Shown here: one piece after another, positions 4,634 to 22,313 of the stretch
How positions within the stretch are numbered: the stretch's first letter is position 1
How the letters are laid out: each line of letters begins with the position of its first letter
Assembly: GCA_023259115.1 (NCBI GenBank)
Contig: JAHFQW010000012.1
Location: forward strand, 1-48,195
Origin: an archaeon
Lineage (GTDB): Archaea > Nanobdellota > Nanobdellia > Woesearchaeales > GW2011-AR9
Direction of reading: 5' to 3'
DNA length: 48,195 nucleotides
Translations under genes and position numbers: made by a program
The notes under the pieces: model-generated
Database searches by the model: none
The model's input: only the letters and a program-made list of their open reading frames with translations
Told to the model about the DNA's origin: nothing

Positions 4634-4813
4634 TATAGAGGAATTTGAATAAACCCTCTATTCATCAATATAATAGACCGCAGTTTATTTACAAGAAATA
4701 CGAAAACTATCGTATTTCTGTACAGAAAATAAATCGTTTATTTTCTTGTATTAGATAACTGTGTCAAATATTATATATTCTACACCGTTATCTATATTCA
4801 AAGTCATCCTATA
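4634..4813. repeat. Hairpin element B1 with covarying core
   Basis: Outer ends are TATAGAGGAATTTGAATA on the left and the inverted TATTCAAAGTCATCCTATA on the right. Inside are a TACAAG junction, a hairpin GAAATACGA/TCGTATTTC with loop aaacta, a CTGTACA junction, a hairpin GAAAATAAA/TTTATTTTC with loop tcg, and a CTTGTA junction that can pair with TACAAG. The right end supplies the TAG stop codon of the E1 gene. It lies between the last two genes of the operon, so it may end or process the transcript. Confidence 0.75.
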
Positions 4814-6491
4814 TCTCTAAATTCGGTATTCTCTCCTTATGTACATAACAATCACACACCGATCGCAGTGCTGTAAACCCTAATCGCGAATCCAAATCAG
4901 TCGCATATTTAATCGAGCCATTCAATGGGAGGCCGTATCGCTGCCCATCAAAAAGTGTTCCTAGTTCCAATGCCGCAAGCGCCGCTCCAACTTGATTGGT
5001 CATAATAACCGAAGGATCTGGCTGTGCAATACAACTCTGTCTTCGAATAATCTCCTCTTGCCTGCCTCTCTCATAATAATCACTAAATACATGATTCATA
5101 CACGAACTCTTTCCTGGCACATACACTGCCACTTGCGCCGCATCTGGTGAAGACGCCGCACTAATCAACGCAATATCCCTCTCTGTTGCATACGCACTAA
5201 TCAATGCCCGCGCATATAAATTATCCACTAAATCAAAAATCGCATCATACTTTCCTCTTCCGTAAGTATCAATTGAATATGTTCCCTCTTTTCGTTCAAA
5301 TCTCTCAACCAATGCTCTCGTCTTAGCACTAGGATCCATTCTGTGATGTTTTTGTGCAAGCACTCCTGCTTTCTCTTTTCCCACCGCATCATAAAATAAC
5401 ACTTGGCGGTTCAAATTATGACTCTCAATCGTATCATAATCCAAATAATCAACCTCACCGATCCCCATTGTGCTCAACGCTAGTGTCATAATATTCCCTA
5501 ACGCTCCCGCACCAATTACCAGCACTCTCTTATCAGCATATAATTCTCTCTCCTCTTTTTTCTCACTCGGTATATTTTGTGGTACTATCATCTCCCCCAG
5601 ACGTCGAAAAGAAAATCTCTCTCCCTCTACGCCTCGCTTGTAATATAACGCGCGAGGAAATTCCATTCTTGTTGCATCAGTTAAAATAATCTTTTTGACT
5701 TCTTCCGAAATAACTCCCCCCCACAGCAAAGCTAAGAGCGGATGTTGTTCAAAACCAGAAAAATGGGTCATCAAATGATCTACCTCCATTTTCTCTCCTT
5801 GCCATATCATCATCTTTGCATAATTATTGGAAATTCCTGTTGTAATAAAAGGAATTCTTTCAGATCCATATCTATTCTTGGCAAATTCTAACGCCAGCAT
5901 CTTTGATTTAGGATTATTTGTCGTATCAATTATCACCGAACTCTTCTGCAGAAAATCTTGCGCTAATCTTGTTTCTAAATCTACCGGAATACCAATCACT
6001 CTTGTATTTGGGTTAAGCATTTTAAAGCCTCTTTCATACGCCAGAACTCTCTCTTTCCCTGTAAAGCGCATATCCAATACTCGATCTTCTGTTTTCATCT
6101 TACCCGTTCCAATAATGCGCACTTCTCCAACCCCTAATGCCACCAAGGGCAGCGCCGCATAATATGCGCCATAATCTGCCCCAATAATTGTAACAACGGC
6201 GTTCTCTAATTTTATTTGTCCTTCTTCACCCCAAATTTTCTTTTGGCGGTCATAGCGTACCAACTCATTCATTCCCTCAAGCTCAGTATGTTCTACTTCT
6301 GCATGCCCCCTCTCTCCATCTACATGCTCCATCTCTACAAGATCTATCCCTGCATGCTCTACCTCATCTAGCACCGTTGCTGTCTCTTGTTCTTCTACTA
6401 ATTCCCCTATTTTTTCTTTTCTGGGAGGAGGCATAGGTAAACCTATTTTCAAACCTGCATTTTCCAATTCTCCGATTTCTATATCTCCCAT
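4809..6491 (-). CDS. E1-like activating enzyme with two tandem ThiF domains
   Basis: The protein probably adenylates a ubiquitin-like modifier. The first domain (about 79-275) opens with the E1 motif VRYDRQ.IWGEEGQ, but its nucleotide loop is degenerate (GADYGA, 104-109). The second (about 320-515) looks active: GAGALG 327-332, acidic residues D350/D352, HNLNRQ 358-363, GKEK 371-374, and D423-N424 before R428. Candidate catalytic cysteine C487 lies in SCIAQ, followed by PDPSVIMTNQ. C464, C546 and C548 (CDC) could bind zinc. An inactive domain followed by an active one in a single chain is the layout of eukaryotic E1 enzymes; MoeB/ThiF proteins are normally single-domain homodimers. The first 78 residues form an acidic, Pro-containing tail. 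The gene follows the JAMM gene after 129 bases and has only a weak ribosome binding site. Confidence 0.85.
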   Translation of the reverse strand: MGDIEIGELENAGLKIGLPMPPPRKEKIGELVEEQETATVLDEVEHAGIDLVEMEHVDGERGHAEVEHTELEGMNELVRYDRQKKIWGEEGQIKLENAVVTIIGADYGAYYAALPLVALGVGEVRIIGTGKMKTEDRVLDMRFTGKERVLAYERGFKMLNPNTRVIGIPVDLETRLAQDFLQKSSVIIDTTNNPKSKMLALEFAKNRYGSERIPFITTGISNNYAKMMIWQGEKMEVDHLMTHFSGFEQHPLLALLWGGVISEEVKKIILTDATRMEFPRALYYKRGVEGERFSFRRLGEMIVPQNIPSEKKEERELYADKRVLVIGAGALGNIMTLALSTMGIGEVDYLDYDTIESHNLNRQVLFYDAVGKEKAGVLAQKHHRMDPSAKTRALVERFERKEGTYSIDTYGRGKYDAIFDLVDNLYARALISAYATERDIALISAASSPDAAQVAVYVPGKSSCMNHVFSDYYERGRQEEIIRRQSCIAQPDPSVIMTNQVGAALAALELGTLFDGQRYGLPLNGSIKYATDLDSRLGFTALRSVCDCYVHKERIPNLEI

Positions 6492-6620
6492 TTTTCAATT
6501 CTCTGAGTTCCAATTCTCTTCTCTTTATTATAATTTCTCTACTCTCACTTGTTTCTTCACAATCTTAATCCCTCCTGATTTTATTTTTTCGTATTCATAT
6601 TTACTCCTAATCCTATTTCC
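6492..6620 (-). other. Gap between JAMM and E1 genes with a possible micro-ORF
   Basis: This 129-base gap holds a strong GGAGGG ribosome binding site on the minus strand, followed nine bases later by GTG and a ten-codon frame (MKKQVRVEKL) ending in TAATAA. The E1 start has no such site. The small frame may be a remnant, a leader peptide or chance. Confidence 0.3.
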
Positions 6621-8192
6621 TCAGAATTTCGTTCTATCTCTGTGAACCTCATCATATAACTCTGGAATAAATTTTTCCATAGCCTCATTCTGATCATGTG
6701 CTAAAAAATTCCACAGAAAAGATACTTGTATATCCTCTTTATTTCCCTCCAGTGTCTTTCTAATATTCTCTCTCGCTTTTCCCAATATATAATCTTCATT
6801 TCTATCAACTAACGTTGGCACTTCCACCTCTTCTCCATCCGATTCCAGAGGACCTATTTGGTATATTGCTTGTCGTAAACTAATTCCCTGCTGCGATCTC
6901 CCTAATACTCCCAGTAAATCATTCATATATCCTGAGTAAAATACCTCTTGTGAACGATATCTGCTCACATACCCTGCCGCCGCATACACAAAAAGATTTA
7001 CTAATTCTTCTGGTCGTAGACTCGGTTGTTCTTTTTTCACAAATTTATTTGTATGTGACATGAAATAGGAACTATTCGATTTTTGATATTTTTCATATCC
7101 ATCTAACAACGATTGTGAACTAGCCATTTCCCTTCCTGCTTGAAATCCTAACCCATTTGATATGCCCACATCCTCATCTAAATCCCTTTGAAACCATCTC
7201 TTATTTCTCTTGCCATTCCCACTTGGAAATTTCGCCACATATTTGGGTGGAAAAACAATCCTCTCTCGCACTAATTCTTGCATTGCCTGTGTTGTAAACT
7301 CAACATCATCTTCTACATCAACAACTTCCAGTGATATAGTCTGTCGTATAATCGTTTTCTTGCCAATCCCCGTAATGCCTTTCTCCTCTACAATCCCTAT
7401 CTCTGCATAAGGCGTATCTTTTTTTTCATTTACCACAATACTATAGCCAAACCCTCTGATCAGTGGCTCATACGTTTTAAGATCGCACAACTCCACAACT
7501 TCTCGCCACAATCTCTGCACCTCCTCTTCGCTTGCTCTCTTCTTACCAAAACTAAACCCATTTTTTTTCCCAAAGCCATATTGTTCTAATAATTGTTCTA
7601 ATCTTTCTGGATTAGGAATGGTATATTCTAAATACCCATCCACCGTATCTTGACCTGTAATCCTAATCTTTCCCTCTTTCAGCTCCCAGCTAGGTGCACT
7701 CTCCACAATATTAAGAGGTATTCTCTCTCGTTGTTGTGTATTAAGATAGAGGGTATTCAATAACTGCTCAAAATTCTCATTATCTGTTTGAGAATGATTT
7801 GGTTGAAAGTCCGCATGACTATGCAGCCAGCCAATAATATAATAATCTCTGTCTAACTCCTCATTTAATTTTACAACTTCCAAATTTGCTCTTGCATGAT
7901 TCTCACCTGACACTGCCACATAGGCATGACCTGCGTGTGTACCTTTTACCAGCAGTAAATCTCGTACCACATAGCATGGATCATTTTTTTGCGCCAACAG
8001 AAACGAAAACCACTCATTTGCTTTGCCATCAATTGTATGCACCGCTCTACATATCTCATACGCTTTCTCTAACGTATTTCTGGTAATTGGCAATGTTGAA
8101 GGAATAAATACTCTTTCTTGTATTAATTTCTCTTCCCGTTTCATATCCCCTTGTAATAATGCTAATAATTCCTCATCATCTTCGTTCGTCAT
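6621..8192 (-). CDS. JAMM/MPN metalloprotease, predicted deconjugase and precursor protease
   Basis: Residues about 35-195 form a JAB/MPN domain. The zinc motif is complete: E60 in ANEWFSFLL, then H124-x-H126-x7-S134-xx-D137 in WLHSHADFQPNHSQTD. Such enzymes cleave after the C-terminal Gly-Gly of ubiquitin-like proteins, either to mature a precursor or to release it from a target. The remaining about 300 residues are charged and have no motif I recognise; the protein is much longer than a bare MPN domain and so has a specific partner-binding part. Its ATG overlaps the TGA of the E2-like gene (ATGA at 8189-8192), so the two are translationally coupled. The neighbouring small protein has a Gly-Gly followed by six residues, a natural substrate candidate. 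Confidence 0.88.
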   Translation of the reverse strand: MTNEDDEELLALLQGDMKREEKLIQERVFIPSTLPITRNTLEKAYEICRAVHTIDGKANEWFSFLLAQKNDPCYVVRDLLLVKGTHAGHAYVAVSGENHARANLEVVKLNEELDRDYYIIGWLHSHADFQPNHSQTDNENFEQLLNTLYLNTQQRERIPLNIVESAPSWELKEGKIRITGQDTVDGYLEYTIPNPERLEQLLEQYGFGKKNGFSFGKKRASEEEVQRLWREVVELCDLKTYEPLIRGFGYSIVVNEKKDTPYAEIGIVEEKGITGIGKKTIIRQTISLEVVDVEDDVEFTTQAMQELVRERIVFPPKYVAKFPSGNGKRNKRWFQRDLDEDVGISNGLGFQAGREMASSQSLLDGYEKYQKSNSSYFMSHTNKFVKKEQPSLRPEELVNLFVYAAAGYVSRYRSQEVFYSGYMNDLLGVLGRSQQGISLRQAIYQIGPLESDGEEVEVPTLVDRNEDYILGKARENIRKTLEGNKEDIQVSFLWNFLAHDQNEAMEKFIPELYDEVHRDRTKF

Positions 8193-19935: not shown

Positions 19936-19947
19936 AATATTTAAATA
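19936..19947 (+). promoter_or_regulatory. TATA box of tRNA-Ser
   Basis: AATATTTAAATA ends 26 bases before the first base of tRNA-Ser (19973). Confidence 0.6.
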
Positions 19948-19999
19948 ACAGCCACAAGCTTCCCCTCTATAAGCCACGATGGCACAATCCGGTACTGCG

Positions 20000-20018
20000 C
20001 AAATCGAGAAATCGAGCG
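20000..20018 (+). other. Intron of tRNA-Ser at the D-arm/anticodon-arm junction (about 25/26-26/27)
   Basis: Without these 19 bases the D arm, base 26 and the anticodon stem are contiguous. The insert holds a TCGA-gaaa-TCGA hairpin. The boundary may shift by one base because G is present on both sides. Confidence 0.7.
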
Positions 20019-20078
20019 TAAGCCTGGAATAAACAGGAGTACTGAGAGCTTGTTTCCGCAAGGATATCCCGGTTCAAA

Positions 20079-20117
20079 TATTACCATCTGAAACCAAATT
20101 CATATGGGATGTGAAAG
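20079..20117 (+). other. T-loop intron of tRNA-Ser (position 59/60)
   Basis: This 39-base insert lies at the same place in the T loop as that of tRNA-Met and ends in the same TGAAAG. It can pair CATC with GATG. Confidence 0.75.
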
Positions 20118-20139
20118 TCCGGGTCGTGGCGCTCTACTT

Positions 20140-20202: not shown

Positions 20203-20215
20203 GGGTCGTGGCGCT
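20203..20215 (+). repeat. Second copy of the tRNA-Ser 3' end
   Basis: GGGTCGTGGCGCT exactly repeats 20121-20133, the end of tRNA-Ser plus two bases, and is again followed by a T-rich run. It may be the trace of an integration or of a duplication. Confidence 0.55.
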
Positions 20216-21485: not shown

Positions 21486-22313
21486 CTACTCCTGTAACAG
21501 ACTCTTATATTTCGCAACCGTTCGTCGTGCAACTTCCAATTTAAACCGCTCATATAATATTGGAACTAATTCTCGATCTGCCACTCTCCACTTCCCCTCA
21601 TGATATAACTCTCCCTCTTGCTGTAATTGTCGCAACGCATAAACCCCTTGCAATCGGTTTACCATCTGCCCTGGAATCAATTCTTCTGTAAAAATAACTC
21701 TGGTATTAGGCAATTGTACACTCAAATTTGTCACCAACCTTGCCACACTTGAAGCAGAATAATCAATAACTGTTGCAACATCCTCTCGGCTAATTGATTT
21801 TAAATCAAAAGGATTCCCACTTTGTAAATAAGTGTCTTGTTCTTTGCATAAATACTCAACAATACTCAGCTGTTGCGCAACAATCCACTCTCGCTGCCGC
21901 ATAAATCTTTTTGAAAATATCTGATTCACTCGAAGTTTTTCATCCCCTCTTCGCTTAAATTGATCTAACTTCTCTTGCAATCTTTTTTGAATATCAGCAT
22001 TATACCTAACCACATACTCCGATTCTTTCTGAACTACTATCTGGGGCATTTCTAAATACTTTTCCTTCGGTACGCTTCCTCTCACCGATTCACATTGTTG
22101 AGAAAAATCATGTGTTCCAAAATAATTTTTTCGTAATTCTATTGGTCTTGGTTCATTCCACGCCGGATCTTGTGCATCAAATTTTCTCACCGCAACCAAA
22201 CTCTGCTCTAGTAACAGTTCTAATTCTAGAGGCGACAATCCTAACAGAGGATTAGGTAATTTATGAGGCAGTTCCATTTTATGGTCAAGGCCCATTCTTA
22301 TTTTCAGATTCAT
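21486..22313 (-). CDS. Sigma-54 (RpoN)-like protein
   Basis: The C-terminus carries the RpoN box ARRTVAKYK (262-270), the signature of bacterial sigma-54. A helix-turn-helix with the sigma-54 pattern lies at about 174-196 (ISREDVATVIDYSASSVARLVTN). Before it, 136-166 (KRFMRQREWIVAQ ... YLQSG) matches the segment that normally reads R..T...V...IV..Q..FF..G. EYVVRYNADI at 99-108 fits the start of the core-binding domain. Region I, the Gln/Leu-rich part that contacts AAA+ activators, is missing. Sigma-54 needs bacterial RNA polymerase, so in an archaeon it may act as a DNA-binding factor. The start overlaps the stop of the upstream 375-residue gene by 4 bases. Confidence 0.78.
   Translation of the reverse strand: MNLKIRMGLDHKMELPHKLPNPLLGLSPLELELLLEQSLVAVRKFDAQDPAWNEPRPIELRKNYFGTHDFSQQCESVRGSVPKEKYLEMPQIVVQKESEYVVRYNADIQKRLQEKLDQFKRRGDEKLRVNQIFSKRFMRQREWIVAQQLSIVEYLCKEQDTYLQSGNPFDLKSISREDVATVIDYSASSVARLVTNLSVQLPNTRVIFTEELIPGQMVNRLQGVYALRQLQQEGELYHEGKWRVADRELVPILYERFKLEVARRTVAKYKSLLQE

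Follow-up and report, generated by a model that had tools for sequence, protein, structure and literature searches.

A tRNA-Ser(GGA) gene with three introns was identified at positions 19973-20131 on the plus strand of the window, the whole 48,195-nt stretch of DNA that was analysed. The class II precursor comprises 159 nt and gives an 84-nt tRNA-Ser(GGA) after removal of 19, 17 and 39 bases. With a probability of roughly 0.7, this is a working gene from which the introns would be removed by EndA and whose exons would be joined by RtcB, with the motif of intron 1 completed by intron 2 and with ordered splicing. Comparison at the level of sequence establishes the exon structure, the three intron sites (29/30, 37/38 and 59/60) and the helices around the cuts. 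The gene comprises the following parts:

19938..19947, plus strand: TATA-like box TATTTAAATA, read from the sequence, 26-35 nt upstream of tRNA-Ser(GGA)
19973..20002, plus strand: exon 1, tRNA positions 1-29
20003..20021, plus strand: intron 1, 19 nt, at 29/30, with the hairpin UCGA-GAAA-UCGA
20022..20029, plus strand: exon 2, 8 nt, with the anticodon GGA inside
20030..20046, plus strand: intron 2, 17 nt, at 37/38, a site common to relatives
20047..20078, plus strand: exon 3 (38-59), with the 3' strand of the anticodon stem, the variable arm, the 5' strand of the T stem and TTCAAA
20079..20117, plus strand: intron 3, 39 nt, at 59/60 in the T loop
20118..20131, plus strand: exon 4 (60-73)

The box TATTTAAATA is the putative promoter of the gene. 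ARAGORN called Ser(gga) only on the form with all three cuts; the precursor and every two-cut version returned nothing. No ARAGORN match was obtained on the window, and Rfam detected no tRNA in it. The spliced 84-nt Ser(GGA) was identical at 75 of 84 positions to the intron-free gene L049 of genome G026, and the same exons were read in intron-free Ser(GGA) genes of the window's family, such as L049 and L051 (G006). Spliced alignment of an intron-free relative's tRNA to 318 chunks of the window scored 105.9 and 83.3 at the Ser(GGA) gene and at most 21.2 elsewhere. The precursor fold reached -55.7 kcal/mol (z -4.15), which none of 200 shuffles equalled. The original prediction of a class II tRNA that is complete only once 19, 17 and 39 bases are removed was borne out by ARAGORN and the intron-free relatives, with the same lengths. 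Its intron sites at 37/38 and in the T loop, here 59/60, also agreed with these relatives.

Introns 1 and 3 both showed a regular bulge-helix-bulge (BHB) motif with a 4-bp central helix and 3-nt bulges. In intron 3, UUCA (54-57; 20073-20076) pairs with UGAA (20112-20115), the bulges are AA/U and AG/U, and the T stem forms the outer helix. Among 31 T-loop introns of this genome and its relatives, counted after merging identical pairs and with the doubtful parses L083 and L280 kept, the central helix held 3.48 of 4 pairs on average and was complete in 19. When it was slid by 1-3 bases, the mean was at most 2.39 of 4 pairs. A57 stood opposite U in 20 of 26 introns and G57 opposite C in three of five.

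The central helix of intron 1 is formed by 19997-20000 and 20016-20019 as GCGC:GCGU, with the bulges AA/A and AA/G, and its outer helix arises through intron 2 only. No variation occurs in GCGC:GCGU; the search pattern itself prescribed GCGC, GCGT and most of the bulge letters. The inner hairpin, left free by the pattern, showed changes on both sides at three of its four pairs across 15 genomes. Intron 1 had been placed near position 26 in the original prediction. It was moved to 29/30 because this cut yields the spliced sequence CTGCGCAAGCC with mature C27, as in intron-free relatives, and a symmetric GCGC:GCGU helix with 3-nt bulges. The 3' end of the tRNA was found a second time downstream:

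20203..20215, plus strand: second copy of the tRNA 3' end, GGGTCGTGGCGCT, an exact 13-nt repeat of 20121-20133

Three alternative readings bear on this gene structure. Judged from sequence alone, the 19-nt cut of intron 1 can slide, and both versions give a foldable stem, which would allow a site at 25/26 or 26/27. This is very unlikely, as only the 29/30 cut produces C27 of the intron-free relatives and, in 15 of 15 genomes, a symmetric helix of 4 bp with a pair of 3-nt bulges, whose letters were largely fixed by the pattern. At the other end of the gene, the 105.9 alignment and one other were joined to the copy at 20203-20215, 82 nt downstream, and not to 20118-20131. The latter was kept as exon 4 because only this end pairs at every position with the T stem of the gene (CCCGG:CCGGG). 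The copy at 20203 might still be the 3' exon in use, with a longer intron 3 enclosing the local 3' end, so that alternative 3' exons would exist. It was preferred by the spliced aligner with a relative's tRNA as query, UGAA precedes it, and downstream copies recur at 9 of 67 Ser loci with none upstream. However, the local exon pairs with the T stem free of G-U and has the full 59/60 motif, and the first 200 nt downstream in the congener hold no such copy; the longer intron 3 is improbable. That the locus is a decaying pseudogene with insertions is scarcely credible, although all standard finders tried miss it. Every stem of the spliced Ser(GGA) pairs, the inserts occupy known intron positions and carry splice motifs, and the congener (G001) keeps the same exons, identical at 76 of 84 positions to the intron-free gene of G026. 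Another intact tRNA-Ser(GGA) had been named in the original prediction as the mark of a pseudogene. None was seen among the matches listed for the 96%-complete genome, where both listed matches sit in the gene described here and a third was weak, so 19973-20131 is probably no pseudogene. A group I intron was rejected separately, with no Rfam match at gathering score, none among three at E<=10, and lengths of 17-39 nt that are too short.

The recurring 3'-end copies repeat the last 12 nt of the tRNA 40-170 nt downstream; a reversed control gave 0. The set of 67 Ser loci excluded L112 (identical to L073), the non-Ser L110 and L113, and L072, for which the window itself was used. A partly overlapping set showed downstream copies at 6 of 42 loci. 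Besides the window, copies were seen at L062, L064, L065, L078, L084, L093, L100, L107, L333 and L363, and they seem to come after a hairpin. The whole T arm was repeated in L064, L093 and L100, and L333 held an exact 99-bp unit twice. These copies may be partial duplications, footprints of integration by an integrase, intron births or alternative 3' exons.

The structure of intron 2 was related to both the D-loop and the anticodon loop. In the minimum free energy (MFE) fold, intron 2 uses AGUACUG to pair with D-loop positions 17a-23, and this helix stacks on GCGC:GCGU of intron 1; the 5' splice site of intron 2 lies inside the loop of a hairpin. The elements concerned are:

19990..19996, plus strand: helix P_a, D-loop strand (17a-23, CGGUACU), from the MFE fold and comparative tests
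20038..20044, plus strand: helix P_a, intron 2 strand (AGUACUG), 2 nt before the 3' splice site
20023..20037, plus strand: hairpin P_c, CCUG (20023-20026) paired with CAGG (20034-20037), from the MFE fold

Helix P_a has 7 bp, with a shuffle p of 0.002 for the window's intron 2. The 352 genomes of the order were searched with two patterns that left intron 2 free, one for intron 2 without intron 1 and one for both. Matches were obtained in 39 genomes with intron 2 but not intron 1 and in 15 with both; the reversed patterns gave no match in the 352 genomes. G004, an intronless gene matched through its variable arm, was dropped from all 37/38 counts, which reduced the 39 to 38. Intron 2 was counted as antisense if it could form a helix of 6 bp or more with the D-loop of its genome, no further than 5 nt from the 3' splice site. 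The antisense was found in 14 of the 15 genomes that carry both introns, compared with 8 of the 38 that lack intron 1 (Fisher P 1.6e-6). The difference held inside the window's family (8 of 8 with both introns versus 6 of 20 with intron 2 alone, P 0.0019) and outside it (6 of 7 versus 2 of 18, P 0.0010). The Fisher and permutation tests treat genomes as independent. The genome's own D-loop was matched in 22 of 44 cases, compared with a mean of 17.8 when D-loops were shuffled among genomes (P 5e-5), and in 14 versus 11.4 of 28 within the family (P 0.006). At a threshold of at least 7 bp, this permutation was not significant (P 0.12 overall, 0.52 within the family). Nine genomes without loci entered the other counts with an unknown D-loop letter 17a and were left out of the n=44 tests. 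Reversed, complemented and reverse-complemented D-loops were matched in 1, 0 and 2 of 44, compared with the 22 real ones.

Covariation pointed in the same direction. Intron 2 followed D-loop letter 22 as C-G, as T-A in G028, G228 and G229 and as G-C in G194. When the blocks of the 15 genomes were joined, pairing was seen in 95.6% of cells. The covariation value for outer helix, central helix and hairpin together was 0.334, compared with 0.168 for shuffled (0 of 500) and at most 0.074 for slid alignments. Where both introns occur, the predicted fold of the segment kept the outer helix in 14 of 15 genomes, versus 7 of 38 where intron 2 stands alone. Among the matched genomes of genus 24, genus 30 and family 83, those without intron 1 (G024, G197, G332) were also without the antisense; in genus 21, G021 lacks intron 1 and still has the antisense. 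Intron 1 was present without antisense in G040, so the antisense is not strictly required. In the eight genomes with antisense but no intron 1, it would be a relic or have another use.

The canonical helix at 32-35 reached at least three of four pairs in 39 of 53 introns at 37/38, with a shuffled mean of 9.8. In the window gene, 32-35 formed two of four pairs with intron positions -6 to -3 in strict register, a state with two canonical pairs that occurred in 2 of 22 antisense introns. A regular motif with 4 bp and 3-nt bulges was not found for intron 2 of the window gene; since relaxed motifs are known, this lowers the claim of a regular motif only. In canonical register, the CCA that ends the antisense can also pair with anticodon loop positions 33-35. 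The canonical motif already wants CC or CCA and accounts for the fixed spacing to the splice site, which leaves the stretch opposite 20-23 as the only part that argues for the D-loop by itself. This stretch was complementary in 14 of 15 versus 12 of 38 genomes (P 4.6e-5) and fitted the own D-loop better than permuted ones (P 0.0043), with 26 matches versus 4.9 when the rest of the intron was shuffled; the association and permutation tests are thus weaker here than for the whole antisense.

From these pairings, we infer that the precursor is cleaved in order and then ligated. EndA would cut intron 3 from the regular BHB on the T stem. The intron 2 stretch would pair with D-loop 17a-23 and supply the outer helix of the BHB of intron 1, so that intron 1 should leave before intron 2 and would be cut first, with intron 2 still in place. 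The same stretch would then release the D-loop; in most relatives it could form the canonical 37/38 motif by pairing with 33-35. Intron 2 would be cut after this re-pairing, the cloverleaf could then form, and the exons would be joined by RtcB. UGG or CGG in the D-loop and UGG in the anticodon loop share letters, so one stretch is able to form both pairings. Both are supported and they are mutually exclusive, and the presence of one intron 2 stretch in both motifs suggests a switch that orders splicing. With two of four canonical pairs, the gene described here is the one in which the switch's second step is weakest. A version in which the D-loop pairing replaces the canonical helix in this type of intron 2 was dropped in favour of the switch, as most relatives have the canonical helix. 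That the introns are interdependent, with intron 2 as a built-in guide for intron 1 and the splicing order written in a bistable RNA, is proposed tentatively, at slightly below even odds.

The introns may alternatively be real but recognised each on its own, with the antisense as a by-product of the need for CCA, the shared UGG and joint inheritance. The canonical 32-35 pairing in 39 of 53 introns would fit this, as would the comparison of related genomes as if independent, the eight genomes with antisense but no intron 1 and the one with intron 1 but no antisense. On the other hand, complementarity extends beyond CCA to the stretch opposite 20-23 and follows D-loop letter 22, the association stands inside and outside the family, and G024, G197 and G332 lack both intron 1 and antisense, although G021 keeps the latter. 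This by-product reading is rather doubtful but far from negligible.

The splicing machinery was searched in the same genome (1.57 Mb, 54 contigs, 96% complete, 0.59% contamination). One PF01974 match at E<=10 was found, an alpha-type EndA with one catalytic unit and about 216 aa from its likely start, charged N-terminal tail included. It carries the motifs VYDRG, DHA and HSTKK with Tyr, His and Lys in place, which we take to be the catalytic residues. Its closest PDB chains were Nanoarchaeum equitans 3iey_A (5e-42), presumably NEQ205, and 1a79 (8e-35), presumably the M. jannaschii EndA. The relatives of EndA in named records, for which the best 80 of 467 were kept (71-87% identity), were almost all Candidatus Woesearchaeota/Nanoarchaeota, so the host is a woesearchaeon (DPANN). 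EndA matches were present in 58 of 60 genomes and single in 57; in G018 they were two overlapping pieces. A profile search of the 96%-complete genome found no second structural EndA subunit; the known beta chain 3iey_B matches this EndA too, by sequence alone (3e-14). None or one of the nine extra residues of 3p1z_B was present in this EndA and 29 aligned relatives; we take 3p1z to be the A. pernix enzyme and these residues to be the Crenarchaea-specific loop tied to broad specificity. Most of the 30 family members aligned (L038 not parsed) have kept a lysine found in the short loop GKVELSL. The epsilon2 type was not seen, as judged by length and unit number (216 aa, one unit). RtcB was present in the genome. 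The broad-range endonuclease of the original prediction follows only in part: intron 2 alone is irregular, intron 3 has a regular BHB, intron 1 has one with the help of intron 2, and the single alpha-type EndA is without the presumed Crenarchaea-type loop.

Introns were frequent in the tRNAs of this genome. The Rfam tRNA model gave 16 matches at E<=1, of which 7 were over the cut-off. With stricter filters, Rfam counts in 60 genomes were 6-29 in the family (37 genomes, this one included) and 11-41 in the rest of the order (23 genomes). In a sample biased by motif and library, at least 19 distinct tRNAs (score >=0.31) were recognised, 18 with an intron of at least 10 nt, 13 with at least two introns and four with three: Ser-GGA, Ala-TGC, a Val and the uncertain L269. 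For this tally, the results of a T-arm motif search (126 matches, 67 in the reversed control; 100 listed) and short stretches were compared, by an aligner that tolerates introns, with 47 mature tRNAs from relatives plus three Ser genes. The cut-off of 0.31 was chosen after the list had been seen, and 72 of the 100 stretches scored below 0.25. The duplicates L210, L211, L009 and L224 and the weak L016, L245, L004, L007 and L280 (score <0.31) were omitted. L002 and L004 looked intronless by Rfam length and yet fitted every library tRNA poorly. The tRNA-Ala(TGC) gene L262 (G000:C40:31285-31755) lies directly downstream of the 16S rRNA gene and has introns in the D, anticodon and T loops.

Relatives were alike. 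Their Ser-GGA genes had three introns in G034 (L087) and G054 (L097). In the congener G001 (L079:441-670), tRNA-Ser(GGA) had four introns of 22, 25, 77 and 22 nt at 29/30, 37/38, 53/54 and 59/60, with the six-base exon TTCAAA between the last two. Its 53/54 intron showed UCCC:GGGA with the bulges GG/A and AA/U and a 10-bp inner helix. Three introns had been considered unexpected in a DPANN-like genome. A class II Ser(GGA) with three introns was indeed found in a woesearchaeon, but it is no lone oddity, as two or three introns also occur in other tRNAs of this genome, relatives are alike and the congener has four.

Several further observations were made. The 53/54 introns of G001 (L079:552-628, 77 nt) and G031 (L069, 90 nt) share the ends AAACTTT and AAGTTGGGAAA and therefore look homologous. 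In G018 (L070, L082, L083), a near-identical T-loop intron of 75-76 nt was present in two Ser tRNAs and seems to begin in a third, as if copied between tRNA genes. Within the window, the archaeal protein encoded at 21486-22313 on the minus strand matched the sigma-54 DNA-binding domain (PF04552, 1.8e-9), a family known from bacteria. Adjoining genes at 4809-8192, also on the minus strand, showed ThiF (E1-like) and weak JAB domains, presumably as in clusters for ubiquitin-like conjugation or for defence.

Earlier work already describes tRNAs with three introns, introns at these positions, the successive removal of close introns, and heavy intron loads in Thermoproteales and Asgard archaea. In the accessible parts of two sources, Thermoproteales have up to three small BHB introns per tRNA at sites including 29/30, 37/38 and 59/60, with three each in tRNA-Glu of Pyrobaculum calidifontis and tRNA-Pro of P. 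islandicum (PMC4390854, PMC4090602). The present case differs in its DPANN host, single alpha-type EndA, four-intron congener and the helix shared by introns 1 and 2. Non-canonical introns are described from Nanoarchaeota in the available portion of PMC4090602, and the successive removal forced on close introns in that of PMC8450103. The Asgard archaea Atabeyarchaeia and Freyarchaeia, of another phylum, are likewise intron-heavy, with introns in 92-95% of tRNA genes, several in more than half and often non-canonical; the accessible part of this source leaves intron-to-intron pairing unmentioned (PMC11291895). In the alga Cyanidioschyzon merolae, tRNA-Ile(UAU) has introns in the D, anticodon and T arms, and the anticodon intron is thought to leave last, after the D-arm intron, according to the part available (PMC9602550). 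This resembles the three introns here and the later exit proposed for intron 2 relative to intron 1, but the organism is eukaryotic and its endonuclease heteromeric. Among enzymes, the N. equitans EndA (3iey_A) is the closest solved relative; N. equitans also has the partner NEQ261 (3iey_B), whereas no second EndA gene was found in the woesearchaeal genome. The epsilon2 EndA of ARMAN-2 (PDB 4fz2, 9w2k), also DPANN, is an enzyme for relaxed introns, but it consists of three fused units (395 aa) and has a special loop, compared with about 216 aa and one unit here; its broad range is described in the accessible part of PMC12397907. In openly licensed full texts, as far as accessible, such an intron load was not found for Woesearchaeota, the literature match concerning group I introns. 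Neither four introns in one archaeal tRNA nor an intron that donates a strand or outer helix to the motif of another was found in openly licensed full texts.

The four introns of the congener exceed the archaeal maximum of three per tRNA stated in the available portion of PMC8450103. Since intron-rich genes escape tRNA finders, the tRNA content of DPANN genomes may be underestimated. According to the accessible part of a review, relaxed motifs are removed efficiently only by (alpha beta)2 and epsilon2 enzymes (PMC6379350). One alpha-type EndA gene together with intron-laden tRNAs across the order would either break this broad-specificity rule or mean that the RNA adapts to a strict enzyme. If the proposed switch is true, a one-gene EndA could clear many introns with no need for relaxed specificity.
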